Shown: one piece after another, positions 538-50,049 of the stretch
How the letters are laid out: each line of letters opens with the position of its first letter
How positions within the stretch are numbered: position 1 is the stretch's first letter
Origin: Demequina litoralis
Lineage (GTDB): Bacteria; Actinomycetota; Actinomycetes; Actinomycetales; Demequinaceae
NCBI RefSeq assembly: GCF_030418455.1
Contig: NZ_JAUHPW010000004.1
Span: 62,001-126,000 of the forward strand
Length of the DNA stretch: 64,000 nt
Reading direction: 5' to 3'
The notes under the pieces: generated by a model
Told to the model about the DNA's origin: nothing
What the model saw: the letters and a program-made list of their open reading frames with translations, nothing else
Databases searched by the model: none
Position numbers and translations under genes: made by a program

Positions 538-547
538 GGACGATGCG
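538..547 (+). repeat. Dispersed decamer GGACGATGCG (first of 52 exact copies)
   Basis: First copy of a decamer found by eye 52 times. Plus-strand copies start at 538, 4018, 10075, 10816, 11068, 14411, 15389, 15756, 19380, 25240, 26126, 27748, 30542, 34811, 36625, 38455, 39924, 41603, 44054, 47146, 48202, 50229, 53660, 56148, 57209, 62982. Reverse-complement copies (CGCATCGTCC) start at 3068, 3175, 4690, 5763, 7182, 14474, 16434, 16798, 18367, 18657, 21004, 26426, 27788, 36290, 38837, 41666, 46264, 47116, 48185, 48363, 52885, 52918, 55036, 58656, 60604, 61926. About 21 are intergenic and 31 lie in genes. One-mismatch copies also occur, for example 19314, 22625, 30595, 45389, 56121 and 61897. 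Function unknown; an uptake-sequence or HIP1-like role is an inference. Confidence 0.9.
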
Positions 548-1565: not shown

Positions 1566-2981
1566 GTGACGGCTGGGTTCAAGCGGGTGCTCGCGCTCGC
1601 GGCGATGTTCGCGCTGGCGAGCGTCGTCGTCGTGGCCGGGCCCACGCATCGTGCCCTCGCCGAGGACTACCCCGGCCAGGCCGAGATCGACGAGGCCCGC
1701 AAGGCCGCCAACGACCTCGCCGCCGGCATCGACGAGCTCGACAACGCGATCGTCGCCCTCGGCGAGGCCCGCGAGAAGGCCACCGCCAACGCGCTGCTCG
1801 CCGGCGAGGACTACATCCAGGCCCAGGAGGCCTCGGACGCCGCGCAGGACACCCTCGAGGCCGCGAACAAGCGCGCCCGCCAGGCCGAGAAGGAGCTCGC
1901 CGAGGCCCGCGAGAACCTCGCGTCCGTCGCCCAGGCCGCCTACCGCGACTCCGGCTCGATGAGCCAGATCGGCGCGGTCGTGGGCGCCGACACCGTCGAC
2001 GAGGTCATCGCCCGCTCCGAGGCCTTCGCCCGCGGCTCCGACGAGGCCGACATGTGGGTCCAGCGCGTCAAGGCCGCCGAGCTCGTCGCCTCGACGATGC
2101 GCTCGTACGCGGACGATGCGGCGACCGAGGCCGCGGAGGCCGCCGCCGAGGCGCAGGCCAAGTACGCGGAGGCGCAGGACGCGCAGGCGCACGCGGAGGA
2201 GGCCGTCGCGATCGCGAACGAGACCCGCGCCGACGCCGTCACCCGCCTCGCCGAGCTCCGCGGGGTCACGATCGCCCTCGAGGAGGAGCGCCAGGCAGGG
2301 CTCGAGGCCGAGCGCCAGGCCGCCGCGCAGGCCGAGGCCGAGGCCCGCCAGAAGGCCGCCGAGGAGGCCGCGAAGGCCGAGGAGGAGGCGTCGCGCCCGC
2401 GGCCGACCTCGACGCCGACCAAGACCTCCACGCCGAAGCCGAGCGCGACCAAGACGTCGACGCCCAAGCCGACGGCCACCAAGACCTCCGAGCCGGAGGA
2501 GACGAAGACCTCCGAGCCCGAGCCCACGACCACCACGTCGACCCCGAAGCCGACCACCACCTCGACCCCCAAGCCCGAGCAGCCCGGCACCAGCTGGAAC
2601 TCGACCGCGGCACAGGGCAAGAAGGCGGCGGAGTACTCGCAGACGCTCATCGGCGCGGAGTACCTGCTGGGCGGCTCGGGCCCCAAGTACGACTGCTCGG
2701 GCGTCACGTCGGTGTCGTGGCTCGAGGCGGGGCAGTGGATCACGCGCTCGTCGCGCACCCAGTACCAGGCGACCACGCACCTGTCCTACTCGCAGATCCG
2801 CGAGGGCGACCTCGTCTTCTACGCGACCGACACCTCGGACCCGTCGACGATCTACCACGTGGCGATCTACATCGGGAACGGCCAGGTCATGGAGGCGGTC
2901 AACTACTCCAAGCCCGCCGGCGTCCGCGGCCTCTACGCGTGGATGACGTCGAACATGATGCCGTTCATCGGCCGCCCCTGA
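1566..2981 (+). CDS. Secreted NlpC/P60 peptidoglycan hydrolase with coiled-coil N-terminus
   Basis: 471 aa, probably a D,L-endopeptidase that cuts peptide stems of peptidoglycan outside the cell. A signal peptide (1-32, ending near HRALA) is followed by a long Ala/Glu-rich coiled coil (about 36-270), a Thr/Pro/Lys/Glu linker with repeated STPKP units (275-345) and a C-terminal NlpC/P60 domain with catalytic Cys377 (YDCSG) and His431 (YHVAIYIG). The coiled-coil plus NlpC layout resembles RipA or PcsB-type division hydrolases, whose coiled coil usually restrains the catalytic domain. GTG 1566 is chosen because AAGGG (1553-1557) lies 8 nt upstream and the signal peptide starts cleanly; GTG 1530 is the alternative. 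Confidence 0.85.
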   Translation: MTAGFKRVLALAAMFALASVVVVAGPTHRALAEDYPGQAEIDEARKAANDLAAGIDELDNAIVALGEAREKATANALLAGEDYIQAQEASDAAQDTLEAANKRARQAEKELAEARENLASVAQAAYRDSGSMSQIGAVVGADTVDEVIARSEAFARGSDEADMWVQRVKAAELVASTMRSYADDAATEAAEAAAEAQAKYAEAQDAQAHAEEAVAIANETRADAVTRLAELRGVTIALEEERQAGLEAERQAAAQAEAEARQKAAEEAAKAEEEASRPRPTSTPTKTSTPKPSATKTSTPKPTATKTSEPEETKTSEPEPTTTTSTPKPTTTSTPKPEQPGTSWNSTAAQGKKAAEYSQTLIGAEYLLGGSGPKYDCSGVTSVSWLEAGQWITRSSRTQYQATTHLSYSQIREGDLVFYATDTSDPSTIYHVAIYIGNGQVMEAVNYSKPAGVRGLYAWMTSNMMPFIGRP

Positions 2982-3045: not shown

Positions 3046-3184
3046 CTGAAATAGCACCAGCGCTCCGCGCATCGTCCCTGGAAAGAGGACTGCGAATCGT
3101 GCGATCGCTCGGCTGTTTGAGGAAATCCTGAAATAGCGAAACGCGACGATGAGTGTCGCGCGGATCGGAACCCGCGCATCGTCC
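3046..3184. repeat. Intergenic tract with CTGAAATAGC direct repeat and two decamers
   Basis: The 269-bp gap between convergent nlpC/p60 and ppa holds CTGAAATAGC twice (3046-3055, 3128-3137), each followed by a CGCATCGTCC decamer (3068, 3175) in the same orientation. The tract is less GC-rich than its surroundings. No reading frame with coding character was seen. Confidence 0.5.
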
Positions 3185-3847: not shown

Positions 3848-5269
3848 GTGCGAAGAATCATCGCAGGCGTGAGCGTCGGCGTGCTGGCGCTCGCCGGCGG
3901 CTACCTCTATCTCGACGCTCAGGACGTGGTCCCGGGCTTCCTCACGGCCGAGCCGGCCGACGTCCCGCAGGCCCCCTTCATCACCCAGGCGCCCGTCGTC
4001 GCGGCCTCGCCGGGGGTGGACGATGCGGCTTCTAGTTTGTCGGCGGACGCGCCTCGGCCGTCGGTCTCCGAGGTTCAAGAACTCGCGGAGGCGCTGCGGG
4101 CCGACGACCGCACGGGGACGTCGACCAACGTGTCGATCGTCGACTACCTCGACGGCACCGTCTACGCCGACGTCTCCGCCGCCGACCCCCAGGTGCCCGC
4201 CTCCACCACGAAGCTCGTCACGGCGATCGCGGCGGTGTCCGAGCTCGGCGTCGACTTCACCACGCAGACCACCGTCACGTGGGACCGCTCCACCCGGACC
4301 CTCACCCTCGTCGCGGGCGGCGACTCCATGCTCGCCGCCGACGAGGGCCACCACGGCGACGTCGAGGATGCCGAGGACGCCGCCGAGGGTTGGGCCGGGC
4401 TCGGCGACCTCGCGGACCAGGTGCTGTCCTTCCTTGGAGAGGACGGGCGCGCCCTCAAGGTCCGCGTCGACGACTCCGACTTCCCCGGTCCCGCCTGGCC
4501 CAAGGAATGGCCCGAGTACGCCTTCACCATGGGATACGCGGCCCCCGTGACCGGCCTCGCGGTCCGCGGCGGCCGCCTCACCGAGGGCAACTACGTCGCC
4601 CGGGCCTCCGATCCCTCCCTCCACGCCGGCGAGCTCTTCGTCGAGGCCCTCGAGGCGCGCGGGCTGCGCGTCCAGGGAGAGGTGAGCCACGCATCGTCCA
4701 CCGCGAAGGCCGTGGAGGTGGCGTCGGTGGACTCGGCGCCGCTGTCCGAGGTCGCGCGCCACCTGCTATCGGTGTCCGACAACACGGTCGCCGAGCAGGT
4801 GGCGCGGGTGCTCGCGCTCGAGTCGGGCTACAGGGCGACGCCGGCGGGGGAGGCGAAGGCGGTCGCCGCGGCGCTCTCGGATCTGGGCGTGACCACAGCC
4901 GGCCTCGAGCTGTACGACGGCGCCGGCTTCTCCGACCGCAACCAGATCTCCCCGGCGACCATGACGAGCGCGCTGCTCGCCGCCAAGGACGAGCCGTCGC
5001 TGTCGGGGCTCCTCGACTGGCTGCCGCTCGCGGGCCTCGAGGGCACGGTCGAGACCAGGTACGACGGCCTGCCGCCCGCCGGCTACTGGCGCGCGAAGAC
5101 CGGCTCGCTCACGGGCGTCACCGCGATCGCAGGCGTGCTCGTCACCGCGGACGGTCGGCCGCTGGCCGTCGCGCTGCTCGCCGACGGCATGCCGTACGGG
5201 CAGGCGAACCCCATGGCCGCGTTCGACGACCTCCTCGGCGCGCTGGCAGAATGCGGTTGTGAGGGATGA
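3848..5269 (+). CDS. dacB: D-alanyl-D-alanine carboxypeptidase/endopeptidase, PBP4 (S13) family
   Basis: 473 aa, an exported penicillin-binding protein that trims terminal D-Ala or opens cross-links in peptidoglycan. An N-terminal hydrophobic segment (residues 3-20) acts as signal or anchor. The three active-site motifs are seen: STTK (Ser119, Lys122), SDN (310-312) and KTG (417-419), with the large insertion between the first two that marks class C PBPs. GTG 3848 is chosen because GGAGG (3837-3841) lies 6 nt before it. Two decamer repeats lie inside (4018, 4690). The end overlaps tilS by 11 nt, so the two are translationally linked. Confidence 0.92.
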
Positions 5270-6293
5270 GGGCAATCCGTTGACGGGACCTCATCCCGCC
5301 GTAGCCGCGTGCCGGGTGGCCGTGCGCGACGCCCTCGGGGATCTCGAGCTCGGCACCCGCGTCTGGGTGGCCGTCTCCGGCGGGCCCGACTCGCTGGCCC
5401 TCGCCGCCGCCGTCGCCTTCGTCGCCCGCAAGCAGGGCCTGTTCGCCGGCGCGATCATCGTCGACCACGGGCTGCAGCCCGACTCCGCCGTCGTCGCCGA
5501 GCGCGCCGCGCACGAGGTCCGGCGTGCGGGCATCCACACCGTCTTCGTCGAGAAGGTGACCGTGGGCCGCGCGGGCGGCATGGAGGCCGCGGCACGCGAC
5601 GCCCGCTACGCCGCCCTCGAGGCGCGCATCGACGCCGAGGGTGGGCTCGCGCCCCTGCTGCTCACCGGCCATACGATGGACGACCAGGCCGAGACCGTCC
5701 TGCTCGCCCTCGCGCGGGGGAGCGGCGCACGGGCGTTGTCGGGCATCCCCGCCCGGCGCGGGCGCATCGTCCGGCCGTTCCTCAACGTGCGACGCAAGGA
5801 CACCCTCGCCGCGTGCCAGGCCCTGGAGCTGGACCCGTGGCACGACCCGACCAACTACACCGAGGACGGGCCGCGGCGGTCGGCGCTGCGGACGAAGGTG
5901 ATGCCGTCGTTGGTGGAGGTGCTGGGGCCGGGCGTGGTGTCGGGGCTGGCACGGTCGGCGGCGCTGCTGCAGGCCGACGCCGACGAGCTCGATCGCCAGG
6001 CCCGTTCCGCGATGGGCGGCTCCGCGTCGACGGTGCGCAGCGACGAGTGGCGCTGCGACATGCTTGCCGCCCTGCCCGACGCGATCCGCACCCGCATGCT
6101 CAAGATGCTCGCCGAGAACCGCGGCGCCGCTCCCATGACGGCGACGCACGTCGCGGCCCTCGATTCGCTCGTCACGGCGTGGAAGGGCCAGGGCGCGATC
6201 TCGCTCCCGGGCGGCTACGAGGCCCGGCGCGAATATGGCAGGCTGGTCATCAGCCACCCGGATGCCCCGAACACTGAGGAGAGGCCAGCGTGA
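5259..6293 (+). CDS. tilS: tRNA(Ile)-lysidine synthetase
   Basis: 344 aa. Modifies C34 of the minor tRNA-Ile to lysidine using ATP and lysine, changing its codon from AUG to AUA. The ATP-pyrophosphatase loop SGGPDS is at residues 40-45, followed by the N-type domain with the TGHTMDDQAET block near 130. Its length suits the short C-terminal region of actinobacterial TilS. GTG 5259 overlaps the end of dacB; TTG 5280 is a possible later start. Its stop overlaps the hpt start by 4 nt (GTGA). The dacB-tilS-hpt-ftsH-folE order is conserved in Micrococcales. Confidence 0.93.
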   Translation: MRDEGNPLTGPHPAVAACRVAVRDALGDLELGTRVWVAVSGGPDSLALAAAVAFVARKQGLFAGAIIVDHGLQPDSAVVAERAAHEVRRAGIHTVFVEKVTVGRAGGMEAAARDARYAALEARIDAEGGLAPLLLTGHTMDDQAETVLLALARGSGARALSGIPARRGRIVRPFLNVRRKDTLAACQALELDPWHDPTNYTEDGPRRSALRTKVMPSLVEVLGPGVVSGLARSAALLQADADELDRQARSAMGGSASTVRSDEWRCDMLAALPDAIRTRMLKMLAENRGAAPMTATHVAALDSLVTAWKGQGAISLPGGYEARREYGRLVISHPDAPNTEERPA

Positions 6294-7073: not shown

Positions 7074-7901
7074 ATGGATCCCGTCACTGCGCTGAACTCG
7101 CTCGGCCGCGCCGCGCGGCTGGGAGAGCTGAAGGAAGCAGGCGTCGCGAGCCGGGCGCTCGGACGAGCGGTGGCCACCCAGCGCATCGTCCGCCCTCTGT
7201 ACGGATGCTACGCGCTGCCCAACGCCACGCGCGCCGACATCCTGCGCGCCGCCTACAGGGCCGAGCTGTGCTGCACCAGCCTGTGCGAGGCGCTCAAGCT
7301 GCCGGTGATCGAGCGTGACGGCGCGATCCACCTGGTGGTCCCGCGCGACCGTGGGCGGCGGGTCGACGACCGCCGCCCGCGGAAAGGCGTGGTGCTGCAC
7401 CGCCACGGCGAGGAGGTCGTGTCCGATGAGGCGCGCGTCGCGGTCGCGCTCGACATGCTCGGGGTCTGTGCGGACCGGATGCAGCAGCTCGTGGCGATCG
7501 ACGCGGCGCTCAACCAGCGGCTCATGACCATCGGTGATCTGGCGGCGTTCGAGATCACGGACGAGGCGCGCCTGCAGTGGCTCCGCGACCACGCCGACCC
7601 CGCGGCCGATTCGTTGCTCGAGACGATCACCCGCGTCGGCCTGGTCGACGAGGGATGGCGCGTCCGGTCGCAGGTGCCCATCGCCGATGCGGGCCGCGTC
7701 GACCTCCTCGTCGAGGACAAGGTCGTGGTCCAGACCGACGGTCGCGAGCATCATGACAACCCGGTCGCGTTCGTCGAGGACCGCCGCAGGGATCGCGCAT
7801 GCGTCGCGGCCGGGTACCGGGTGCTGCGCTTCACCTACGACGACGTGATGAGCGCGATGCCGCGCGTGATCCGCGACGTACGCGCCGCGCTCGCCTATTG
7901 A
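7074..7901 (+). CDS. DUF559 (VSR-like nuclease fold) protein
   Basis: 275 aa. The C-terminal part (about 195-275) has the DUF559 pattern of a very-short-patch-repair-like endonuclease fold: [21 protein letters not shown], then [17 protein letters not shown]. The N-terminal half resembles the winged-helix region often fused to it and related to AbiEi-type antitoxins. These proteins are numerous in actinobacteria and their role is unproven; a transcription-factor-like or nuclease function are both possible. ATG 7074 fits the start of similar proteins; there is no strong ribosome-binding site. One decamer lies at 7182. Confidence 0.75.
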
Positions 7902-8128: not shown

Positions 8129-10165
<2,037 letters not shown>

Positions 10166-10744: not shown

Positions 10745-11563
10745 GTGACGCTCGTCATGGGCATCCTTAACGTCACGCCGGACTCCTTCTCCGACGGCGG
10801 CCTCTTCGCCGAGGTGGACGATGCGATCGCCCGGGGCGTCCGGCTCGCCCAGGACGGCGCAGACCTCGTCGACGTCGGCGGCGAGTCCACCCGACCCGGC
10901 GCCGCGCGCGTGAGCGTCGAGGAGGAGCAGCGCCGCGTCGTCCCCGTCATCCGCGCCCTCGCCGAGGCCGGCATCGCGACCAGCATCGACACGATGAACG
11001 CCGCCACCGCGCGCGCCGCCGTCGAGGCCGGCGCGAGCATCGTCAACGACGTCTCCGGCGGCCTGGCGGACGATGCGATGGCCGCCACCGTCGCCGACCT
11101 CGCCGTCGACTTCATCGCCATGCATTGGCGCGCCCACTCCACGGAGATGGACCACCGGGACGAGTACGCGGACGTCGTGCGCGAGGTGGGCGCCGAGCTC
11201 GCGGCGCGCGTCGACGCCCTGGTCGCCGCCGGCGTCGGCGAGGACCGCATCGTCCTCGATCCAGGCCTGGGCTTCTCCAAGGTGACGGACTCCAACTGGC
11301 CGCTGCTCGCGCACATGGACGGGTGGGCCGGTGGCCGGCGCGTCCTGGTGGGCGCGAGCCGGAAGCGCTTCCTGGGCGCCGCGATCGCGCGCCCGGGCGT
11401 GGACGCCGCCGACCCGACCGCCCGCGAGGCCGCCACCATCGCGGTCACCACGCTCGCCGCCCGGGCAGGTGCCTGGGGTGTCAGGGTGCACGACGCACGT
11501 GCCGCCGTCGACGCGATCCGCGTCGTGTCGGCTTGGGAGAACGCCGCACGAGGGGAAGGATGA
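10745..11563 (+). CDS. folP: Dihydropteroate synthase
   Basis: 272 aa. Condenses p-aminobenzoate with dihydropterin pyrophosphate; the target of sulfonamides. The first signature NVTPDSFSDGG is at residues 9-19, the second, DVGGESTRPGA, follows at about 40-50, and the SRKRF motif near 200 is present. GTG 10745 has a strong GGGGAGG site just upstream. It overlaps the next gene at ATGA if that gene starts at 11560. Two decamers (10816, 11068) encode Asp-Asp-Ala within it. Confidence 0.95.
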   Translation: MTLVMGILNVTPDSFSDGGLFAEVDDAIARGVRLAQDGADLVDVGGESTRPGAARVSVEEEQRRVVPVIRALAEAGIATSIDTMNAATARAAVEAGASIVNDVSGGLADDAMAATVADLAVDFIAMHWRAHSTEMDHRDEYADVVREVGAELAARVDALVAAGVGEDRIVLDPGLGFSKVTDSNWPLLAHMDGWAGGRRVLVGASRKRFLGAAIARPGVDAADPTAREAATIAVTTLAARAGAWGVRVHDARAAVDAIRVVSAWENAARGEG

Positions 11564-13877: not shown

Positions 13878-15509
13878 ATGAACGACACGACCGGCTACGT
13901 CTACCACGCACCACGCGAGTGGACCCGCCTCCACCCGGTCTCGCCCCTGCTGGGCGGCTGGGTGTTCCTCGGCCTCATCCTCGCGTACTGGATCCACAAC
14001 CAGCTGCCCGCGTGGGTCGACGGCGGCGACGACAACTCGCTCGCCTTCTTCGACCAGTTCCCGTTCCTGTGGCTGGTCCTCGCGGCCCTCCTCGCCTTCG
14101 CCGCCACCATCGGCATCTCGTTCTGGCAGTGGCGCCGCACCGAGTACCGGATCGGCGACGACGCGGTCTACCTCCGCCAGGGCATCGTCACCCGCCAGCA
14201 GCGCCAGGCCCGCCTCGACCGCCTCCAGGCCGTCGACGTGGTGCAGCCGCTGCTCGCGCGCCTCTTCGGCTTCGCGGCCATCAACGTGCAGGTCGCGGGC
14301 GGCCAGAAGTCCGGTGTCGAGCTCAAGTTCCTCCGCCTCGGCGATGCCGAGGCCCTCCGCAACGAGATCCTCGCCCTCGCCGCCGGCGTCAAGGAGGAGA
14401 AGGCGACGGGGGACGATGCGGCGGGCACCACCGCGCCCACCGCCGCCCCCGACGCGACCACCGCCGACACCACCGCATCGTCCGGAATCCGCGGCCACCT
14501 CGCCGCACGCGCCGGCGCGCTCTCCAACCCCGAGGCGGTCCTGTCCGGCACCGAGCGGGTCCGCACCGCCGTCGCCGCCGCCGAGGAGCGCGAGGTCTAC
14601 ACGCTCCCGCTCAAGCGACTGCTGCTGTCGATCGTGCTGTCGGGCGCCACGTTCTTCCTGCTCACGCTCCCGTTCGTGGGGCTCATCGCGTTCTTCGTCT
14701 TCCGGGTCGACGTCGTGGCGGCGGTCGGCGCGGCCATCGGCACCAGCCTCGTCGCGATCGTGACGGCGCTCGCCGGTCTGCTCGGCTTCTTCTGGACGCG
14801 CCTCAACGGCGGCTTCGGCTTCACCGCCGGCATCTCCGCGGACGGGCTGCGCCTGCGCCACGGCCTCACCGAGACCCGCCGGCAGACCGTCCCGCCGGGC
14901 CGCGTCCAGGCGATCCGCCTCTACCAGCCCTTCCTCTGGCGCGGCCAGGACTGGTGGCGCATCACCATCAACGTCGCAGGCTACGGCGAGGACCAGGAGT
15001 CCGTCTCCGTCCTCCACCCGGTCGCGACGCGCGAGGAGGCCATCCGCGCGGTGTGGCTGGTCCTGCCGGACCTCGGCGACCCCGACCCGTACGGCACCCT
15101 CGGCCACGCGCTCCACGGCCACGGCGCCGACGGCGGCTTCACCGCCAGCCCCGAGGCCGCCCGCCGCGTCGACCCCTTGCAGTGGCGCTTCCGCGGCGTC
15201 CGCGCCACCGACCGCGCGCTGCTCATCCGCCGCGGCCGCTGGGAGCGCGAGCTCTTCGTCGTGCCGCACGAGCGCACCCAGTCCCTCGGCCTCACCCAGG
15301 GCCCGATCCGCCGCGCGCTCGGCCTCGCGAACGTCGTCGTGCACTCCACGCAGGGCCCCGTCACCCCGGTCGCGGCGCACCTCGCGGTGGACGATGCGAT
15401 CGAGCTGCTCGACGCGCAGGCCGCCCGGGCGCGCGAGGGCCGCCGCCGGCAGACCCCCGAGCAGTGGATGAGCGCCGTCGGCCTCGAGACGGGAGCCTCC
15501 GATGAGTGA
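13878..15509 (+). CDS. PH domain-containing membrane protein (YdbT-like), second of a pair
   Basis: 543 aa with a repeated plan: transmembrane pairs near 24-42/56-76 and 250-270/284-304, and bPH2 domains near 90-160, 320-390 and 430-510. The first repeat has YLRQGIVTRQQRQARLDRLQAVDVVQPLLARLFG; equivalent blocks recur at RHGLTETRRQTVPPGRVQAI and IRRGRWERELFVVPHERTQS. An Ala/Thr-rich linker (about 172-205) holds two decamers in inverted orientation (14411, 14474). Function unknown; it forms a unit with the preceding gene. Confidence 0.8.
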   Translation: MNDTTGYVYHAPREWTRLHPVSPLLGGWVFLGLILAYWIHNQLPAWVDGGDDNSLAFFDQFPFLWLVLAALLAFAATIGISFWQWRRTEYRIGDDAVYLRQGIVTRQQRQARLDRLQAVDVVQPLLARLFGFAAINVQVAGGQKSGVELKFLRLGDAEALRNEILALAAGVKEEKATGDDAAGTTAPTAAPDATTADTTASSGIRGHLAARAGALSNPEAVLSGTERVRTAVAAAEEREVYTLPLKRLLLSIVLSGATFFLLTLPFVGLIAFFVFRVDVVAAVGAAIGTSLVAIVTALAGLLGFFWTRLNGGFGFTAGISADGLRLRHGLTETRRQTVPPGRVQAIRLYQPFLWRGQDWWRITINVAGYGEDQESVSVLHPVATREEAIRAVWLVLPDLGDPDPYGTLGHALHGHGADGGFTASPEAARRVDPLQWRFRGVRATDRALLIRRGRWERELFVVPHERTQSLGLTQGPIRRALGLANVVVHSTQGPVTPVAAHLAVDDAIELLDAQAARAREGRRRQTPEQWMSAVGLETGASDE

Positions 15510-16431
15510 CGTCCGCGGGCACGCGGTCAACGGCAACACGCGCCGGCCGGGCCGGCTGCGCATCGGCGTGGTCGGCGCGGGCAAGGTGGGCGCGGTCCTC
15601 GCGGCCGCGCTGCGCGAGGCCGGCCACGACATCGTCGCCGCGTCGGGCGTCTCCGACGCGACCCTCGCGCGCATCGAGGCGATGCTTCCCGGCGTCCCCA
15701 TCGCCGACCCCGACGAGGTGGTCCGCGCCGCCGAGCTCGTCCTGCTCACCGTGCCGGACGATGCGATCGGCCCCGTCGCGGCCGGCCTCGCCAAGGTCGA
15801 GGCCTGGCGGCCCGGGCAGCTCGTCGTGCACACGTCCGGCAGGCACGGGATCGACGTGCTGTCCGAGCACGCGACCCCCGGCATCGTGCCCCTCGCGATC
15901 CACCCCGCGATGACCTTCACCGGCACCTCGCTCGACCGCGCGCGGCTGCACGACACGGTCTTCGCCGTCACCGCGCCGCCCGGGATGCTGCCCATCGCGC
16001 AGGCGCTCGTGGTGGAGATGGGCGGCGAGCCCGTCGTCATCGAGGAGTGGGACCGGCCGCTCTACCACGCGGCCCTCGTGCACGGCGCGAACCACGTGGT
16101 CACCGCGGTCGCGCAGGCCAGCCAGGTGCTGTCGCGCATCGGCATCGAGGAGCCCGCGCGGGTGCTCGGGCCGCTCATCCACGCGTCCGTCGACGGCGCG
16201 CTGCGGGACGCCCCGGGCGCCGTGTCGACCCTCACCGGGCCGGTCGTGCGCGGCGACGCGGGCACGGTCGCCGCCCACATCCGCGCCCTCGATGGGCAGC
16301 CGGAGGCCCTGTTCGCGTATCGTGCCATGGCGCGCGCGACGGCCGACCTGGCTCTCAGCGGCGGCCGCATCGGCCCCGCCCAGTACGCCGACCTCATCGC
16401 GACGCTCGGAACGGAAGGGATGGGGGACTGA
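15502..16431 (+). CDS. panG: DUF2520 Rossmann oxidoreductase, likely ketopantoate reductase PanG
   Basis: 309 aa. The N-terminal NAD(P)-binding Rossmann domain begins with RIGVVGAGKVGAVLAAALREAGH (residues about 19-41); the C-terminal helical domain is DUF2520 (COG5495). The family includes PanG of Francisella, described as an alternative ketopantoate reductase. Here the gene is directly followed by panC with a 1-nt overlap, and no panE or ilvC is visible, so reduction of ketopantoate to pantoate is the best guess. Function rests on family and context, not on visible catalytic residues. Overlaps the PH-domain gene by 8 nt. Confidence 0.7.
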   Translation: MSDVRGHAVNGNTRRPGRLRIGVVGAGKVGAVLAAALREAGHDIVAASGVSDATLARIEAMLPGVPIADPDEVVRAAELVLLTVPDDAIGPVAAGLAKVEAWRPGQLVVHTSGRHGIDVLSEHATPGIVPLAIHPAMTFTGTSLDRARLHDTVFAVTAPPGMLPIAQALVVEMGGEPVVIEEWDRPLYHAALVHGANHVVTAVAQASQVLSRIGIEEPARVLGPLIHASVDGALRDAPGAVSTLTGPVVRGDAGTVAAHIRALDGQPEALFAYRAMARATADLALSGGRIGPAQYADLIATLGTEGMGD

Positions 16432-17303
16432 TGCGCATCGTCCACACCGCGAACGAGCTGCGCGGGACGACCACCCGGCCCGCCCGGCGCTCGGGCGACC
16501 GCCCCAGCCGCGCCGTCGTCATGACGATGGGCGCGCTCCACGAGGGCCACCTCGCGCTCGTGCGCGCCGCGCGCGAGGCCGCCGACGAGGTCGTCGTCTC
16601 CATCTTCGTCAACCCCCTCCAGTTCGAGGACCCCGACGACCTCGACACCTATCCCCGCACCCTCGACGAGGACTGCGCGCTGCTCGAGCCGCTCGGCGTC
16701 GACGTGGTCTTCGCGCCCTCGGTCGACGAGGTCTACCCGACCGGCCTGCCCGTGGTGACCGTCAACGCGGGGCGGATCGGCGAGGTCTTCGAGGGCGCGC
16801 ATCGTCCCGGCCACCTCGACGGCGTGCTCACCGTCGTGTGCAAGCTGCTCCACCTCACGCAGCCGGACCTCGCGTTCTTCGGGCAGAAGGACGCGCAGCA
16901 GCTCATCGCGGTGCGGACCATGGTGCGCGACCTCGCGATGGGCGTCGACATCGTCGCCGTGCCCACGGTGCGCGACGTCGACGGCCTCGCGCTGTCCTCG
17001 CGCAACGTCTTCCTCTCCGGCGAGGAGCGCGCGCGGGCACTCATCCTCTCCGAGGCCGTCATGGCGGCCGATGCGGCGGCCCGGACCGGCGCCGACCTCG
17101 ACGAGGCGCTCGCGGCCGGCAACGCCGCGCTCGCCCGCGAGCCCGAGGTGGAGGTCGAGTACCTCGCGGCGCTCGACCCCGTGTCCGCCGAGGGCCTCGA
17201 GGGGGACTACCGTGGAGAGGCAGTGATCGCCGTGGCCGCCCGCGTGGGCGAGACCCGGCTCATCGACAACGTGGTGACGCGGATCGGGCGCCCGCTGGGC
17301 TAG
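16431..17303 (+). CDS. panC: Pantothenate synthetase (pantoate-beta-alanine ligase)
   Basis: 290 aa. Joins pantoate and beta-alanine with ATP to give pantothenate. The nucleotide-binding MTMGALHEGHL block is at residues 31-41, FVNPLQF near 62, FGQKDAQQLIAVR near 148 and the second signature SSRN near 186. The ATG overlaps the DUF2520 stop codon (TGATG). panD follows after 33 nt, completing a pantoate-to-pantothenate unit. Decamers lie at the very start (16434) and at 16798. Confidence 0.95.
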   Translation: MRIVHTANELRGTTTRPARRSGDRPSRAVVMTMGALHEGHLALVRAAREAADEVVVSIFVNPLQFEDPDDLDTYPRTLDEDCALLEPLGVDVVFAPSVDEVYPTGLPVVTVNAGRIGEVFEGAHRPGHLDGVLTVVCKLLHLTQPDLAFFGQKDAQQLIAVRTMVRDLAMGVDIVAVPTVRDVDGLALSSRNVFLSGEERARALILSEAVMAADAAARTGADLDEALAAGNAALAREPEVEVEYLAALDPVSAEGLEGDYRGEAVIAVAARVGETRLIDNVVTRIGRPLG

Positions 17304-17964: not shown

Positions 17965-19659
17965 ATGACCGCCTTCGTGCGCAGCCTCGCCGCGCCCCCG
18001 CCCGGCTGGACCATCGAGACCGACGTCATCGTGGTCGGCTCGGGCATCGCCGGCCTCACCACGGCGCTGGACCTGCGCGAGCGCGTCGACCGGGTGCTCG
18101 TGGTGACGAAGGGCGAGCTCTCGTCGGGCTCGACCGTGTGGGCGCAGGGCGGCATCGCGGCCGCGCTCGACCCCGAGGACACCCCCGAGGAGCACCTCGA
18201 GGACACCCTCGTCGCGGGCGTCGGCCTGTGCTCCGAGGAGGCCGTGCGCGTCCTCGTCACCGAGGGTCCGCACTCGGTCCGCAAGCTCCTGCGCCGCGGC
18301 GCGCAGTTCGACACCGGCCCCGACGGCGGCCTCACGCTCACCCGCGAGGGCGGCCACCACCGCGACCGCATCGTCCACGCCGGCGGCGACGCCACGGGCG
18401 CCGAGATCTCCCGTGCCCTCATCGAGCAGCTCGAGGCCGTCCGCAACGACCCGGGCATCGAGGTCATCGAGCACGCCATGGTGGTCGACCTCCTCACCGC
18501 CGCACCCGACGCAGACGGACGCCCCGGCCCCGTCTGCGGCGCGACCATCCACATCATCGGCGAGGGCTCGCGCGACGGCGTCGGCGCCGCGCTCGCGAAG
18601 GCCGTCGTCATGGCGACCGGCGGCATCGGCCAGGTGTTCCGCTCCTCGACGAATCCCGCATCGTCCACCGGCGACGGCCTCGCCGTGGGCCTGCGCGCGG
18701 GCGCCGCGGTCGCCGACGTCGAGTACGTCCAGTTCCACCCGACCGTCCTGTGGCAGGGCGCCAACGCTCGCGGCCAGCTGCCGCTGATCTCCGAGGCGGT
18801 CCGCGGCGAGGGCGCGTACCTGCTCAACGGCGCGGGCGAGCGCTTCATGGTGGGCACGCACCCGATGGCCGAGCTCGCGCCGCGCGACGTGGTGAGCCGT
18901 ACCATCGTCGAGCAGATGCGCGAGGAGGAGTCCGACTCCGTCTTCCTCGACTGCCGCCACCTCGAGCGCGACTTCCTCAAGCGCCGCTTCCCGTCGATCT
19001 GGGCGTCGCTCAAGGAGCACGGCCTCGACATGGCGCACGACCTCATCCCAGTCGCGCCCGCCCAGCACTTCCACTCCGGCGGCATCCTCACCGACCTCCA
19101 CGGCCGCTCCACCCAGCGCGGCCTCTACGCGATCGGCGAGGCGGCCTGCACCGGCGTTCACGGGGCCAACCGCCTCGCCTCGAACTCGCTGCTCGAGGGC
19201 CTCGTCTTCGCGCGCCGCGCCGCGCGCGACGCCGCCGCCATGGTCGCGGACGGCGTGCTCGAGCAGCTCGAGCCCGTCGAGCGCTCCGGCGAGTCGGCGC
19301 TCGTCCCGGCGACGATGCGCCCCCGCGTCCAGGCGATCGCGCACGAGGGCGCCGGCCCGGTCCGCGACGGCGACGGCCTGGACGATGCGGTGGCACGGCT
19401 CGATCGCATCCGCGCCCGCTTCCATACGGAGCCGGCGGCCGAGGTCGTCCCTCAGACCGCGGAGTGGGAGACGACGAACATCGTCGCCGCGGCGTCGGTG
19501 CTGTGCCAGGCGGCGCTGCTGCGCGAGGAGTCGCGCGGTGGGCACCAGCGCGCGGACTTCCCGGACACGGACCCGGAGTGGGCGGTGCGCCTGGCCGCGC
19601 GGCTCGACCCGGACGGCGAGATCGACTTCATGAAGGCGCCGCTCGACCTGGTGGAGTAG
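17965..19659 (+). CDS. nadB: L-aspartate oxidase
   Basis: 564 aa. Flavoenzyme that oxidises aspartate to iminoaspartate, the first step of NAD synthesis. The FAD dinucleotide fold IVVGSGIAG is at residues 22-30, SGSTVWAQGGIA near 54-65, and the catalytic-domain HFHSGGI and EAACTGVHGANRLASNSLLE blocks follow. TAACCT (17952-17957) lies 7 nt before the ATG, suggesting a leaderless mRNA. Its partner nadA is not in the window, and nadC is 2.7 kb away behind an opposite-strand module. Three decamers lie inside. Confidence 0.94.
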   Translation: MTAFVRSLAAPPPGWTIETDVIVVGSGIAGLTTALDLRERVDRVLVVTKGELSSGSTVWAQGGIAAALDPEDTPEEHLEDTLVAGVGLCSEEAVRVLVTEGPHSVRKLLRRGAQFDTGPDGGLTLTREGGHHRDRIVHAGGDATGAEISRALIEQLEAVRNDPGIEVIEHAMVVDLLTAAPDADGRPGPVCGATIHIIGEGSRDGVGAALAKAVVMATGGIGQVFRSSTNPASSTGDGLAVGLRAGAAVADVEYVQFHPTVLWQGANARGQLPLISEAVRGEGAYLLNGAGERFMVGTHPMAELAPRDVVSRTIVEQMREEESDSVFLDCRHLERDFLKRRFPSIWASLKEHGLDMAHDLIPVAPAQHFHSGGILTDLHGRSTQRGLYAIGEAACTGVHGANRLASNSLLEGLVFARRAARDAAAMVADGVLEQLEPVERSGESALVPATMRPRVQAIAHEGAGPVRDGDGLDDAVARLDRIRARFHTEPAAEVVPQTAEWETTNIVAAASVLCQAALLREESRGGHQRADFPDTDPEWAVRLAARLDPDGEIDFMKAPLDLVE

Positions 19660-19986: not shown

Positions 19987-21663
19987 TCAGGCGGGCTGGA
20001 ACGCGCCCGTCGCGAGCTCGAGGCCCGGGACCGCGTCGACGAGCGTGAACATGCCGCCGTCGAGCGTAGCCGAGTCGAGGCCGTGCTGCGCCAGCACGCG
20101 GTGCGCGTAGTACGAGCGCACGCCCGAGGCGCACAGCACGCGGACCGGGCGACCGGCCGCGATCTGCTTGACGCCCTCGATGTACTCGCGGATGTGGGTG
20201 TGCGGGAGGTTGACCGCCTCGGGCAGGTGGCCCATGGCGTACTCGCGCTCCGACCGGACGTCGAGGATCAGGGCGTTGTCCCGAGCCCAGTCGAGTTCGC
20301 CCACCGTCCACACCTTGGTGGTCCCGTTCACCACGTTCTGGGCGAGGAAGCCCAGCATGTTGACGGGGTCCTTGGCCGAGCCGAACGGGGGTGCATATGC
20401 GAGCTCGAGCTCAGCGATGTCGTCGGCAGAGAAGCCCGCCCGCAGCGCCGTCGCGAGCACGTCGATGCGCTTGTCGGCGCCGTCCGGTCCCACGGCCTGG
20501 GCGCCGAGGAGCTTGCCCTCGGGCGAGAACACGCCCATGAGGTGCAGCACCTGGGAGCCGGGGTAGTAGCCGGCGTGGTTCGCGGGGTGCGTGTGGACCA
20601 CGAAGTACTCGATGCCCGCCTGGTCGAGCATGCGGGGCGAGGCGCCCGTTGTCGCGGCGGTGAGGCCGAACGTGCGGACGATCGCGGTGCCGAGCACCGG
20701 CTGCGCCTTGTCGGAACGGCCCATGATCGAGTCCGCGGCGCGGCGGCCCTGACGGTTGGCCGGACCCGCGAGCGGGACCGGGCCCACCTGGCCGGTCACG
20801 CCGTGGCGGACGGCGATCGCGTCGCCGGCGGCCCAGATGTGGGCGTCGGAGGTCTGCTGGAACTCGTCGACCACGATCGCGCCGCGGTCGGTGAGCTCGA
20901 GGCCCGCCTCTCCGGCGAGCGCGGTGTTGGGGCGCACGCCCACGGACATCACGACGATGTCGGCGGGCACCTCGGTGCCGTCGCCGAGCGTCACGGTGAC
21001 CGCCGCATCGTCCCCGCCCGCGCGGATGCCGGTCGCGGCGACTCCGGCGCGGACGTCGACGCCGTGCGAGGTGAGCTCCTTCTCGACGAGCGCGCTCATC
21101 TCGGGCGCGAGCGGCGGGAGCACCTGCGGGGCGAGCTCGACGAGCGTCACCTCGAGGCCGCGGTGGCGGAAGGCCTCGGCGGTCTCGAGGCCGATGAAGC
21201 CGGCGCCCATGACGACCGCGCGCTTGGCGTTCGCGGTGCGGCCGGCGAGCTCGCGCGCCTCGTCGACGGTGCGGAGGTGGGTGACCTCGGGGAGGTCGAC
21301 GCCGGGGATCGGCGGCACGATCGCGTCGGCGCCGGGGGAGAGCACGAGCGCGTCGTACTCGAAGGTCTCGGTGCCCTCGGGCGTCGCGACCAGCACGGTC
21401 TGCGCGTCGCGGTCGATCCCGATGACCTCGTGCTCGATGCGCACGTCGAGGTCGAGCTCGGCCTTGAGGGACTCGGGGGAGTGGAGCAGCAGGTAGGAGT
21501 CCTGCTCGATCTCGCCGCCCACGTGGTACGGGAGCCCGCAGTTCGCGAAGGACACGTATCGGCCCTTCTCGAACACGATGATCTCCGCGTGCTCGTCGAG
21601 CCTGCGGGCGCGGGCTGCGGCGCTCATGCCGCCGGCGACACCGCCGATCACCAGGATTCGCAT
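19987..21663 (-). CDS. CoA-disulfide/persulfide reductase with C-terminal rhodanese domain
   Basis: 558 aa. An FAD/NAD(P)-dependent pyridine nucleotide-disulfide reductase (1-445) starts with ILVIGGVAGG and has the single active cysteine Cys42 in FANCGLPYHVGG, typical of CoA-disulfide reductases and NADH oxidases. A rhodanese domain (about 465-558) carries Cys511 in CASGVRS. This fusion (CoADR-RHD) is known to reduce CoA-persulfides and polysulfides. The neighbouring CstR-like repressor and shared operator support a role in sulfide/persulfide handling. ATG 21663 matches the conserved N-terminus. Contains one decamer (21004). Confidence 0.88.
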   Translation of the reverse strand: MRILVIGGVAGGMSAAARARRLDEHAEIIVFEKGRYVSFANCGLPYHVGGEIEQDSYLLLHSPESLKAELDLDVRIEHEVIGIDRDAQTVLVATPEGTETFEYDALVLSPGADAIVPPIPGVDLPEVTHLRTVDEARELAGRTANAKRAVVMGAGFIGLETAEAFRHRGLEVTLVELAPQVLPPLAPEMSALVEKELTSHGVDVRAGVAATGIRAGGDDAAVTVTLGDGTEVPADIVVMSVGVRPNTALAGEAGLELTDRGAIVVDEFQQTSDAHIWAAGDAIAVRHGVTGQVGPVPLAGPANRQGRRAADSIMGRSDKAQPVLGTAIVRTFGLTAATTGASPRMLDQAGIEYFVVHTHPANHAGYYPGSQVLHLMGVFSPEGKLLGAQAVGPDGADKRIDVLATALRAGFSADDIAELELAYAPPFGSAKDPVNMLGFLAQNVVNGTTKVWTVGELDWARDNALILDVRSEREYAMGHLPEAVNLPHTHIREYIEGVKQIAAGRPVRVLCASGVRSYYAHRVLAQHGLDSATLDGGMFTLVDAVPGLELATGAFQPA

Positions 21664-25027: not shown

Positions 25028-25285
25028 ATGGAGACCTGGCAGGCCGTCGCGATCGGCATCATCCCGTCGATCGGGGTGGGCCTGATCTTCTGGTTCGCGA
25101 TGCGCGCGGTCATCCGCGCCGACCGAAATGAGCGCGCCGCTCTCGCTAAGGCCGACGCCGAGGAGGCGGCCCGCGAGGCCGCGTCCACGTCCGGCCCGGC
25201 GGGCGCGCCCGAGCAGCCCGCTACCAGCGGCGATGCGGGGGACGATGCGGCGGCCGGCTCGGGGGAGCAGCGCCAGGAGGCGTAA
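25028..25285 (+). CDS. Small membrane protein downstream of lysS
   Basis: 85 aa. One transmembrane helix (about 6-28) is followed by a charged, Ala/Glu-rich cytoplasmic tail with RADRNERAALAKADAEEAARE, probably helical. Similar short proteins follow lysS in other Micrococcales, but no function is known. GGGGA precedes ATG 25028. A decamer (25240) encodes Asp-Asp-Ala near its end. Confidence 0.7.
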   Translation: METWQAVAIGIIPSIGVGLIFWFAMRAVIRADRNERAALAKADAEEAAREAASTSGPAGAPEQPATSGDAGDDAAAGSGEQRQEA

Positions 25286-25758: not shown

Positions 25759-26822
25759 CGCTCCTCTGGGGCACCTACCCGGCGGCCGGTCTCGGCACCC
25801 CGGCCGGGCTGGGCGAGGGGATCTGGCGGTCCACGCGACCGGATGACCCCGCCGCGGAGCAGGTCATCGACCTGCCCGCACCGTCCTTCCTGGTCGCGCA
25901 CCCGCGCCTCCCGCTCGTGTACGCGGCCTGCGAGCTGCCCGCGAGCGAGGTCGTGGTCCTCGACGTGCGCCGCCCGGCCGCGCCGCGCATCGTCGCGCGC
26001 CTCGCGACCGGCGGCGCCGACGCCTGCCACCTCCTCCTCGCGCCCGACTCGCGCACGCTCTACGTCAGCCACTACTCGAGCGGCGACCTCGCGGTCGTCC
26101 CGCTCGGGGAGGACGGCGTTCCCGTGGACGATGCGCCGGCCCAGCTGCTCGGCCACTCCGGCTCGGGTCCGAACGCCGAGCGCCAGGAAGGGCCGCACGC
26201 GCACTCCTCGCTGATCGCGCCCGGCGGCCGGCACGTGCTCGTCGTCGACCTCGGCACCGACGAGCTGCGCCGCTACCGCATCCTCGACGGCGGCCTGCTC
26301 GAGCCCGACGGCATCGCCGCGACGCTCCCGCCCGGCGCCGGCCCCCGGCACGCCGCGGTCCGGGGACACCTCCTCTATGTCACGTGCGAGCTCGACCACC
26401 GGCTCCGCACGCTCCGCTGGGACGACGCATCGTCCACCGCGACCGTCATCGCCGAGACGCCCTCGACCCTCGCGCCGCCCCGCAGCGCCGAGCTGCAGGA
26501 CGCCCACGTCGCGCTCGTGCCCGGCCACGGCGGCGACGTGCTGCTCGCGAGCGTGCGCGGCGCGGACGTCATCGCGGTCTTCGACGTGGCCCCCGAGGGC
26601 GAGCTCACCTACCGCGGCGCGTTCGACGCGGGTTACTGGCCGCGGCACTTCGCGGCCGTCGGCGACCGGCTGCTCGTGGGGGAGGAGCGCGGCCACCGCG
26701 TGCGGTCCTTCGCGCTCGCCGACGTGATCGGCATGCCGCCGGAGGGCGGCATCGGCGACGTCGCAGAGCTGCCCTACGCGGCGGGCGAGGTCGTGAGCCC
26801 GGCCTGCATTACTGAGATTTGA
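25755..26822 (+). CDS. Lactonase-like beta-propeller protein (YbhE/6-phosphogluconolactonase family)
   Basis: 355 aa. Repeated propeller blades (SFLVAHPRLPLVYAACE, CHLLLAPDSRTLYVSHYSSG, HSSLIAPGGRHVLVVDLGTDEL, GPRHAAVRGHLLYVTCEL) place it in the lactonase family PF10282, which includes the YbhE type of 6-phosphogluconolactonase. Whether it opens that lactone or another sugar lactone cannot be told. No signal peptide is seen, so it is cytoplasmic. GTG 25755 overlaps the lsr2 stop, so translation may be coupled. Two decamers lie inside. Confidence 0.8.
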   Translation: MTLLWGTYPAAGLGTPAGLGEGIWRSTRPDDPAAEQVIDLPAPSFLVAHPRLPLVYAACELPASEVVVLDVRRPAAPRIVARLATGGADACHLLLAPDSRTLYVSHYSSGDLAVVPLGEDGVPVDDAPAQLLGHSGSGPNAERQEGPHAHSSLIAPGGRHVLVVDLGTDELRRYRILDGGLLEPDGIAATLPPGAGPRHAAVRGHLLYVTCELDHRLRTLRWDDASSTATVIAETPSTLAPPRSAELQDAHVALVPGHGGDVLLASVRGADVIAVFDVAPEGELTYRGAFDAGYWPRHFAAVGDRLLVGEERGHRVRSFALADVIGMPPEGGIGDVAELPYAAGEVVSPACITEI

Positions 26823-27747: not shown

Positions 27748-27797
27748 GGACGATGCGCGGGGCGCTGCCCGTCTCAGGCCCGGCCCGCGCATCGTCC
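27748..27797. repeat. Inverted decamer pair forming a hairpin
   Basis: GGACGATGCGCGGG pairs with CCCGCGCATCGTCC over 14 bp around a 22-nt loop, immediately after gpmA. The standard terminator follows 11 nt later. Confidence 0.75.
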
Positions 27798-30468: not shown

Positions 30469-30577
30469 GGTGCTCCTCCACGCGGGTGAGGCGCTGCTCC
30501 ACACGAGCGCCCCGTTGTGAACGGGCACATGGCCCGCGGAGGGACGATGCGGGGGAGCCGGCGTGGAGAGGCAACCG
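30469..30577. repeat. Family A intergenic repeat, copy A6, with a decamer inside
   Basis: Left end GTGCTCCTCCACGC and GGCGCTGCTCCACAC; core GTTGTGAACGGGCACA; right end GCGTGGAGAGGC. A decamer (30542) lies inside, and a one-mismatch inverted decamer follows at 30595. It starts 9 nt after regX3. Confidence 0.75.
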
Positions 30578-34794: not shown

Positions 34795-34830
34795 CATCAT
34801 GCCTGGTAGAGGACGATGCGTGGATTCGCT

Positions 34831-36089: not shown

Positions 36090-36769
36090 CCGTCGCGGCC
36101 GTCGTCACGGCCGCCGGCTACGGGACCCGGCTCGGGTCCGACCTTCCCAAGGCGCTCGTCGCCGTGGCGGGCGAACCGCTCGTCACGCACGCCGTGCGCC
36201 GGATCGCGCGCGTCGCCGCCCACGTGGTGGTGACCGCGCCGCCCACCCATCTCGACGACTTCGCGCGCGCCCTCGCCGGGCTCGACGCGCGCATCGTCCC
36301 CGGCGCCGGCACCCGGCAGGAGTCCGTCAACGCCGGGCTCGCCGCGCTCGCGCCGGAGCCGGCCGACATCGTCCTCGTGCACGATGCGGCCCGCGCCTTC
36401 CAGACCGTCGCCGCCATGCGCGCGGTGGTCGCCGCCATCGAGGCGGGCGCCGACGGCGCCATCCCCGTGGTGCCCGTGGTCGACACGCTCGTCACCGCGC
36501 CGGGGCCCGATGGGGCGCTCGGCGACCCGGTCGACCGCGCCGGCTTCCGCATCGTGCAGACCCCGCAGGCCTTCCGCGCCTCGGTGCTGCTCGACGCGCA
36601 CGCGCGCGGCGGCTCGTCCGCGACGGACGATGCGACGCTCGCCCGCGCGCTCGGCTACCGCGTGGTCGCGACCGACGGCCACGAGAGGGGCGTCAAGATC
36701 ACGCATGCGGGCGACCTCGCGCTCGCCGAGCACATCGCGGCGCTCGCCGCGGAAGAGGAGAAGGTGTGA
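36086..36769 (+). CDS. ispD: 2-C-methyl-D-erythritol 4-phosphate cytidylyltransferase
   Basis: 227 aa. Adds CMP to MEP in the non-mevalonate isoprenoid pathway. The nucleotidyltransferase loop [16 protein letters not shown] is at residues 9-24, with VHDAARAF and VKITHAGDL further on. GTG 36086 overlaps the carD stop. Two decamers lie inside. The stop overlaps ispF (GTGA). Confidence 0.94.
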
Positions 36770-37318: not shown

Positions 37319-38743
37319 GTGACCCTCCGCCTGTACGACACCGCCACCCGCGACGAGCGCGTCTTCGAGCCGCTCATCCCCGGGAAGGTGGGCATCTACC
37401 TGTGCGGACCCACGGTGCAGAGCGCGCCGCACGTAGGCCACCTGCGCAGCGCCGTCGCGTTCGACGTGCTGCAGCGCTGGCTCGAGCGATCCGGCTACCA
37501 GGTGACCCTGGTGCGCAACGTCACCGACATCGACGACAAGACCCTGGTCAAGGCCGCCGAGGCCGGCTGGGACTGGTGGGCCTGGGCGCTGCGCCACGAG
37601 CGCGAGTTCCAGGCGGCGTACTCCGCGGTGGGCGTGCGGCCGCCGGCCGCCGAGCCGCGCGCCACCGGCCACATCCCCGAGATCATCGCGCTCATCGCCC
37701 TGCTCATCGAGCGCGGCCACGCGTACGAGAACGGCGGCTCGGTGTACTTCGACGTGCGCTCGTACCCGCAGTACGGCGCACTCACCCGTCAGGCGCTCGA
37801 CGACCTCTCGCCCGCGCAGGACTCGCCGTCCGAGGACAAGCGCGACGTCCACGACTTCGCGCTGTGGAAGGCCCGCAAGGACGATGAGCCCGGCACCGCC
37901 TCGTGGGACTCCCCGTGGGGCCCCGGACGTCCGGGCTGGCACATCGAGTGCTCCGCGATGGCGCAGCGGTACCTCGGCGACGCGTTCGACATCCACGGCG
38001 GCGGCCTCGACCTGCGCTTCCCGCACCACGAGAACGAGCAGGCGCAGTCCCACGCCGCGGGCTACGGCTTCGCGCACCTGTGGATGCACTCGGCGTGGGT
38101 GACGCAGTCGGGTGCGAAGATGTCGAAGTCGCTGGGCAACGGGCTGCTGGTGTCCGAGGTGCTCGCGACGCACGAGCCCGCCGCGCTGCGCCTCGCGCTC
38201 GCCGCGGTGCACTACCGGTCGATGCTCGAGTACTCGCCGCAGACCCTCGAGGAGGCCTCCGCGCAGTGGGGCCGCTTCCAGGGCTTCGTGACGCGCGCGT
38301 CCGAGAAGGTAGGGGCGCCGTCCGCGGCCGACGTGGCGGCCGCCGAGCTGCCCGCCGCCTTCGTCGAGGCGATGGACGACGACCTGGGCGTGCCCCGCGC
38401 GCTCGCGGTCATCCACGAGACGGTCCGCGCCGGCAACGCCGCGCTCACCGCGGGGGACGATGCGGCGGTCGCCGCGGCGCTCCTCGCCGCCCGCGCGATG
38501 CTCGACGTGCTGGGCCTCGACCCGGCCGCCCCCGAGTGGGCGACCGAGAAGGCCGGCGCCTCGACCGCCGCGATGGCCGCGCTCGACTTCCTGGTCAAGG
38601 CGGACATCGAGGCGCGCGCCACCGCCCGTGCCGAGAAGGACTGGGCGACCGCCGACGCGATCCGCGACCGCCTCGCCGGTGCGGGGATCGTCATCGCCGA
38701 CGCCGCCGACGGTGCGCGCTGGTCGCTCGCGAGCGAGGGCTGA
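37319..38743 (+). CDS. cysS: Cysteine-tRNA ligase
   Basis: 474 aa, class I synthetase. HIGH motif as PHVGHL near residue 37, KMSKS exact (KMSKSLGN) near 266. Zinc ligands include Cys30 in YLCGPTVQ and Cys218 with His243/Glu247 in the HIECSAMA and HHENEQAQS blocks. TAGCCT (37307-37312) ends 6 nt before GTG 37319, so the mRNA is leaderless. A decamer encodes Asp-Asp-Ala at 38455. Isolated MshC is excluded by the C-terminal DALR-like domain and length. Confidence 0.93.
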
Positions 38744-38755: not shown

Positions 38756-38884
38756 GTCACCCCTCCACACCAACCGGGCACCCCTCCACACCGCCGGCCC
38801 GATGTGAACGGGTACACGGCTCGATCGGGTGCCCCGCGCATCGTCCTGTGTGGAGGAGTGAACGGCGGGTGTGGAGGAGTGCTC
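38756..38884. repeat. Family A intergenic repeat, copy A8 (double units at both ends)
   Basis: Left end GTCACCCCTCCACAC and GCACCCCTCCACAC; right end GTGTGGAGGAGTGAAC and GTGTGGAGGAGTGCTC. The core has GATGTGAACGGGTACA, and a decamer lies at 38837. It starts 13 nt after cysS and is the most complete and symmetrical copy. Confidence 0.85.
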
Positions 38885-39887: not shown

Positions 39888-40016
39888 GGACCCCTCCACA
39901 CCGCCCGGTGACCCCTCCACACAGGACGATGCGCCGGGCGCCGGATCCGGGCATGTGGCCGTTCACATCGGGTGGCTTGTGTGGAGCAGTGCCCCGGGTG
40001 CGTGGACAGGTGAACG
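39888..40016. repeat. Family A intergenic repeat, copy A9
   Basis: Left end GACCCCTCCACAC and GTGACCCCTCCACAC; right end GTGTGGAGCAGTGCC and GCGTGGACAGGTGAAC. The core appears reversed (CCGTTCACATCGGG) relative to A6 and A8. A decamer lies at 39924. It fills the gap between convergent rlmB and the DUF4032 gene. Confidence 0.85.
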
Positions 40017-46263: not shown

Positions 46264-46273
46264 CGCATCGTCC
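46264..46273 (-). repeat. Isolated decamer between dsbA and tRNA-Thr
   Basis: CGCATCGTCC, 19 nt after the dsbA-like stop. The flanks GAGCGCCG and CGGTGCGGCGCTC could extend it into a hairpin, which may end the mauE-dsbA transcript. Confidence 0.6.

Positions 46274-48278: not shown

Positions 48279-50049
<1,771 letters not shown>

Follow-up and report, generated by a model that had tools for sequence, protein, structure and literature searches.

A gene for a membrane protein with three bPH_2 stretches (PF03703, 1.7e-42) lies on the plus strand of the 64-kb stretch of Demequina litoralis DNA analysed here, which we call the window, and it carries three exact copies of the decamer GGACGATGCG. 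A preliminary description, made from the letters alone, had placed two of these copies in inverted order in a loose linker. This is what we find: the two copies, both exact, lie 63 bp apart and inverted to each other, in the linker between PH domains. The features of the gene are as follows.

13878..15509, plus strand: bPH_2 membrane protein gene, three stretches, three decamers
14376..14586, plus strand: variable-length linker between PH domains, approximate extent from comparison of relatives
14411..14420, plus strand: decamer copy 1 in the PH linker, read G-GAC-GAT-GCG (GDDA), exact match
14474..14483, minus strand: decamer copy 2 in the PH linker, read C-GCA-TCG-TCC (TASS), exact match
15389..15398, plus strand: third decamer in the PH gene (VDDA), exact match

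The relatives of this gene are found in Demequina species, across which the linker ranges from 52 to 98 aa, yet in almost all of them it has one or two motifs. The motifs match each species' own form of the word (its dialect, see below), and the linker peptide tracks the dialect, reading DDA, ADA or PDA.

In the whole window, GGACGATGCG is present in 54 exact copies, against about 1 predicted by a third-order Markov model, and none of its single-mismatch variants exceeds 7. The copies outside the PH gene are listed below.

538..547, plus strand: intergenic decamer
2111..2120, plus strand: decamer in gene (ADDA)
3068..3077, minus strand: intergenic decamer
3175..3184, minus strand: intergenic decamer
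4018..4027, plus strand: decamer in gene (VDDA)
4690..4699, minus strand: decamer in gene (HASS)
5763..5772, minus strand: decamer in gene (RIVR)
7182..7191, minus strand: decamer in gene (RIVR)
10075..10084, plus strand: decamer in gene (MDDA)
10816..10825, plus strand: decamer in gene (VDDA); GGCCGATGC here in 6/8 C-dialect orthologues
11068..11077, plus strand: decamer in gene (ADDA)
11246..11255, minus strand: decamer in gene (RIVL)
15756..15765, plus strand: decamer in gene (PDDA); GGACGACGCG in two relatives, a synonymous difference
16434..16443, minus strand: decamer at gene start (RIVH)
16798..16807, minus strand: decamer in gene (AHRP)
18367..18376, minus strand: decamer in gene (RIVH)
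18657..18666, minus strand: decamer in gene (PASS)
19380..19389, plus strand: decamer in gene (LDDA)
21004..21013, minus strand: decamer in gene (GDDA)
25240..25249, plus strand: decamer in gene (GDDA)
26126..26135, plus strand: decamer in gene (VDDA)
26426..26435, minus strand: decamer in gene (DASS)
27748..27757, plus strand: intergenic decamer, inverted pair with 27788
27788..27797, minus strand: intergenic decamer, inverted pair with 27748
30542..30551, plus strand: intergenic decamer
34811..34820, plus strand: intergenic decamer
36290..36299, minus strand: decamer in gene (RIVP)
36625..36634, plus strand: decamer in gene (TDDA)
38455..38464, plus strand: decamer in gene (GDDA)
38837..38846, minus strand: intergenic decamer
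39924..39933, plus strand: intergenic decamer
41603..41612, plus strand: intergenic decamer
41666..41675, minus strand: intergenic decamer
44054..44063, plus strand: decamer in gene (ADDA)
46264..46273, minus strand: intergenic decamer
47116..47125, minus strand: decamer in gene (VDDA)
47146..47155, plus strand: intergenic decamer
48185..48194, minus strand: intergenic decamer
48202..48211, plus strand: intergenic decamer
48363..48372, minus strand: intergenic decamer
50229..50238, plus strand: intergenic decamer
52885..52894, minus strand: intergenic decamer
52918..52927, minus strand: intergenic decamer
53660..53669, plus strand: decamer in gene (ADDA)
55036..55045, minus strand: decamer in gene (RIVR)
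56148..56157, plus strand: decamer in gene (PASS)
57209..57218, plus strand: decamer in gene (AASS)
58656..58665, minus strand: decamer in gene (RIVL)
60604..60613, minus strand: decamer in gene (GASS)
61926..61935, minus strand: intergenic decamer
62982..62991, plus strand: intergenic decamer

The 3.02-Mb genome as a whole has 1,564 copies (793 on the plus and 771 on the minus strand), against 5 for the reversed control word, and the window is richer than the genome mean (54 copies vs 33 expected, p = 5e-4). An 830-kb sample contains 361 copies where 12 are expected. The decamer is not palindromic, as it differs from its own reverse complement. One-mismatch forms are 1.66-fold over-represented, and the flanks are essentially random, with only weak preferences for T at -7, G at +12/+13 and C at +15. 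A short, dispersed word in high copy number could be a mobile or insertion-derived (MITE-like) repeat, or the target of one. However, the flanks are near random and conserved genes contain the copies in frame, and the one-base intermediates GGACGACGCG and GCACGATGCG are present at orthologous sites, indicating that decamers arise by substitution and not by insertion. We consider a mobile origin very unlikely.

Using a 444-kb sample (the window plus 380 kb) in which genes were called by a codon-trained caller, we found a motif density of 1.59/kb between genes and 0.33/kb in coding DNA, a 4.8-fold difference. These densities were taken from the 444-kb and not the 830-kb sample because gene calling is incomplete in atypical islands. 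Most copies are nevertheless inside genes, where amino-acid identity is 0.57 beside the motif vs a gene mean of 0.63. The intergenic enrichment, together with some convergent pairs at gene ends such as 27748/27788, would suit a regulatory or terminator element spread mainly via gene ends, with the in-gene copies as by-products. Against this, genes hold the majority of copies, and gaps of every type, co-directional, convergent and divergent, contain both orientations. The 20 pairs lying within 60 bp of each other (7 convergent, 6 divergent, 7 direct) show no excess of inverted pairs and no orientation preference, and no T-runs of terminators were seen, which differs from Neisseria (PMC3630211) and Haemophilus. 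A terminator role was rejected on these grounds, and an element of this type remains a highly improbable source of the motif.

We then consider what the decamer costs the genes that carry it. The 132 in-gene copies of the 444-kb sample are read in six frames, DDA (70), ASS (36), RIV (16), TMR (5), HRP (4) and GRC (1), and the 106 copies in the DDA and ASS frames (80%) need a rare codon, GAT or GCA. Outside the motif, GAT makes up 500 of 8616 Asp codons (5.8%) and GCA 548 of 18680 Ala codons (2.9%) in the same sample; in the 23 motif-bearing genes of the window, the corresponding values are 37/538 (6.9%) and 39/1347 (2.9%). For GAT, the contrast between motif and non-motif positions is strong (Fisher p about 2e-46), and 81 of the 146 DDA tripeptides in the sample are written GACGATGCG. 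The preliminary description had proposed that the decamer is kept in genes at the expense of normal codon choice, that GAT and GCA are otherwise unusual here, and that equal frequencies outside the motif would refute the idea. Since both codons are scarce outside, that refutation does not arise. The frames it had named are also borne out: in the 23 window genes all 17 plus-sense copies read GAC GAT GCG, while among antisense copies CGC ATC GTC is found 8 times, GCA TCG TCC 7 times and Ala-His-Arg once. One detail of the description needs correcting: CGC-ATC-GTC is made of ordinary preferred codons and so has no codon cost, which falls on the DDA and ASS frames.

That two tripeptides are favoured among in-gene copies leaves room for selection on the peptide (a DDA or ASS linker motif) or for a codon-usage artefact. 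When synonymous codons were shuffled within genes, however, only 15.6 copies (maximum 21) were left of the 132 observed, so that just 12% were retained. Moreover, all six frames are used, the density is higher between genes, and the same linker encodes a different peptide depending on the dialect. The comparison with orthologues points the same way. In ten relatives of the same dialect, and counting only sites where Asp is kept, GAT within the motif stays GAT in 34/47 cases (72%) vs 40/130 (31%) outside; for GCA at sites with a kept Ala, the figures are 11/16 (69%) vs 51/240 (21%). Fisher p-values for these contrasts are about 1e-6 and 1e-4, respectively, and are optimistic because the comparisons share ancestry. 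Rare codons are thus preferentially kept in the motif when the amino acid is kept, indicating that DNA and not peptide is maintained, and we give peptide selection and codon artefact almost no credence.

Motif positions also persist as the surrounding linkers turn over. When 22 kb was aligned to four close relatives, the 21 copies of our genome were shared with D. maris at 14 positions, D. rhizosphaerae at 14, D. soli at 13 and D. mangrovi at 7, and 3 of the 21 had no aligned counterpart at any of the four loci. Several of the missing orthologous copies are one base off, for example GGACGACGCG, which still codes for DDA. The proposal that the DNA sequence is what is under selection or spread by biased conversion is hence supported by both checks that the description had suggested, namely the codon contrast and the comparison of orthologues, with its retention of rare codons and persistence in changing linkers. 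Sequence alone cannot tell selection from biased conversion, and an uptake-sequence system would predict both. Drive alone may suffice for uptake sequences (PMC1939737), a view for which Maughan et al. 2010 is a further reference (cited in PMC10526031).

GGACGATGCG is limited to part of one genus, a clade which we take to be the former genus Lysinimicrobium; genomes of 21 other genera in the order have 3-37 copies, which is background. Elsewhere in Demequina we find clade-specific dialects, so that the genus contains GGACGATGCG, GGACGATGCC (the dialect of D. sediminis), GGCCGATGCG/C and GCCCGACGC (GCCCGACGCTG/GCCCGACGCG), all with the common core CGA[T/C]GC. Other Demequina use the GGCCGATGCG or GGCCGATGCC dialect, the 9-mer reaching 2,018 copies per genome, and two further genomes have the GCCCGACGC dialect at about 1,100-1,200 copies. 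No evident motif was found in G001 and G027, though the pilus described below is present in both. On a tree of the PH protein the dialects cluster, requiring 8 changes vs 21.3 in shuffles, with 0/200 shuffles as low. When GGACGATGCG sites were mapped to orthologues of the GGCCGATGC dialect, that dialect's own motif lay within 18 nt in 18/133 cases vs 2.0% of controls. G004 has about 1,113 copies of GGACGATGCG, although by its PH gene it falls among genomes that have a different dialect or lack one; it is the sole exception to the clustering, and its dialect switch may have been independent or transferred. Two other words were noticed along the way: a second over-represented word resembling GTGTGGCGGAGCC (TCCGCCACA) in D. 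sediminis and D. subtropica, and AACCGGCGA, with 13 copies in 22 kb from D. soli vs 0.3 expected, which may be a local tandem repeat.

The longest two stretches without the motif, of 22.3 and 23.9 kb, are G+C-poor atypical islands. One contains HmaABC defence genes and a tyrosine-recombinase-like integrase gene, and the other glycosyltransferase-like genes and IS-like transposases; the integrase, glycosyltransferase and transposase labels come from inspecting the sequences by eye. Any motif that is part of a genome's signature should likewise be absent from such islands. A 20-kb island at G000:C1:450856-471236 encodes an integrase-like protein, HmaA/HmaB/HmaC and a DpdE/DrmD-like helicase and has 0 decamers.

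Genes for DNA uptake are present in the genome, although only their presence and not their function is established. A single locus contains the genes for PilB, PilT, PilC, the major pilin, minor pilins, PilD and PilM-O; those for ComEC and ComEA are adjacent to each other on a separate contig, and a DprA gene is also present. PilC was found in all Demequina examined except one incomplete genome. In G008 the pilC gene appears to be split between two frames (G008:C1:2293093-2294311), which would reflect either an error in sequencing or a pilus lost recently, and this genome has 1,206 copies of its own dialect, GCCCGACGC, despite the split. In the pil locus (G000:C1:280001-300000), PilC is 93% identical to that of G026 and G022 and 68% to that of G030, in contrast to the PH gene, whose identity is 92% with G030 but 70% with G026. 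Judging from these identities, the pil locus looks to have been exchanged between species. The type of pil locus was rejected as the determinant of dialect: G000/G022 and G030/G016 share a dialect and differ in locus type, and both types also occur within another dialect.

One candidate for the receptor was an orphan type IV minor pilin, conserved in many Demequina, whose gene is found apart from the pil locus with a GNAT acetyltransferase gene on one side and metE on the other (L149:5393-5812; G000:C19:138438-138812). It was found in most genomes first compared but was undetected in the motif-rich G010, G019 and G013, where a profile search gave pil-locus or weak matches only, and it has an acidic globular domain (pI 4.1-5.9). 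We therefore dropped it as a universal receptor and regard it as no more than a candidate DNA receptor. Known uptake-sequence systems have a dedicated minor pilin that binds the motif, ComP or ComN. The orphan pilin recalls ComP of Neisseria, likewise a single protein, but went undetected in some motif-rich genomes.

The main rival to an uptake sequence is an intracellular architecture or recombination site (HIP1-, Chi-, KOPS- or matS-like), bound by a nucleoid, segregation, repair or recombination protein and held at its density by selection. The high density, the copies in and between genes, the conserved orthologous sites and the absence from young islands would all fit, and some relatives have a full pilus without the motif. 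HIP1 of cyanobacteria is a palindrome, GCGATCGC, iterated genome-wide as a short word inside genes; the Demequina decamer is likewise an iterated short word inside genes but is not palindromic. Chi and KOPS sites are over-represented 8-10-mers in coding DNA that are polar with replication. The decamer is also over-represented in coding DNA, but we found no replication polarity on a 606-kb contig, where strands are balanced (124 plus and 124 minus) and 100-kb bins have no strong skew (origin and terminus were not located), which disfavours Chi- or KOPS-type sites. Dialect switching around a fixed core on the time scale of a genus would, in addition, be unusual for the site of a core DNA-processing protein. 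We regard an architecture site as unlikely, though not to be dismissed.

We have observed the motif and its behaviour in the genome, its upkeep at the level of DNA, its dialects and the presence of machinery genes; preferential uptake, by which such a sequence is functionally defined, a receptor and drive are inferences. Taking these analyses together, we conclude that GGACGATGCG is probably the DNA uptake sequence (DUS/USS type) of this Demequina, and that uptake specificity, which the preliminary description had left unnamed, is the likely cause behind what it had inferred. Five traits are published for uptake sequences, and the decamer shows them all: absence of palindromy, occurrence in genes and at higher density outside, and freedom from orientation bias, here both along the contig and in the genome-wide counts of 793/771 (PMC1939737); dialects around a constant core (Frye et al. 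2013, PMC3630211); and under-representation in acquired islands (PMC7371117). An uptake sequence in a Gram-positive genus is therefore the best explanation. The decamer also falls within the usual size (9-12 bp) and copy range (hundreds to thousands) of such motifs, but it lacks the frequent inverted pairs serving as terminators that are a common though secondary trait of them. Like the Neisseriaceae DUS, the Demequina word is a 10-mer without palindromy, numbers about 10^3 copies and is found both within genes and between them, its clade dialects differ by a few bases around a conserved core and follow phylogeny, and it coexists with a type IV pilus with PilT, ComEC, ComEA and DprA (PMC3630211). 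It differs in that its core is CGA[T/C]GC and not CTG, an unrelated sequence, and in that the host belongs to the Actinomycetota and lacks an outer membrane, with no receptor identified and no uptake data. With the Pasteurellaceae USS, a 9-mer core of two types, it shares many copies, non-coding enrichment and no orientation bias (PMC1939737), as well as a fixed inner core (PMC12616744); the sequence is again unrelated, and the extended flanks are only weak in Demequina.

Under an uptake-sequence model, a receptor at the surface, most likely one of the pilins of the chromosomal type IV pilus, would bind DNA containing the decamer better than other DNA. Retraction driven by PilT, together with ComEA, would deliver this DNA to the ComEC pore, and DprA and RecA would recombine the single strand into the chromosome. 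As incoming donor fragments would be enriched in intact motifs, every round of uptake and homologous replacement would restore or spread the motif. It would spread where it is tolerated: in intergenic DNA, in linkers and at positions where a change is synonymous or almost neutral, even those that take the rare GAT and GCA, while drift of the receptor might give rise to clade-specific dialects around a fixed core. In the literature we searched, which left out most subscription journals, we found neither an actinobacterial uptake sequence nor any uptake or transformation experiment on Demequina.

Only two proteobacterial families, the Neisseriaceae and Pasteurellaceae, are known to recognize their own DNA by a surface uptake motif (PMC12616744, 2025), and whether their systems have separate origins is debated (PMC12616744). 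We lean towards the view that Demequina has a third, independently evolved system of self-DNA recognition for transformation, the first in a Gram-positive phylum, with at least four dialects, a pilus-borne receptor, a recombination barrier between dialects and a reshaping of codons and linkers. If true, this would be the first self-DNA uptake 'password' reported outside the Gram-negative families of Neisseria and Haemophilus, and it would mean that the strategy evolves repeatedly and works without an outer membrane, here in cultured environmental Actinomycetota. It would also offer an independent test of selection vs molecular drive. The decamer may serve as a practical tag for transforming Demequina, and it exemplifies how a force acting at the DNA level can override codon preference and rewrite linker peptides.
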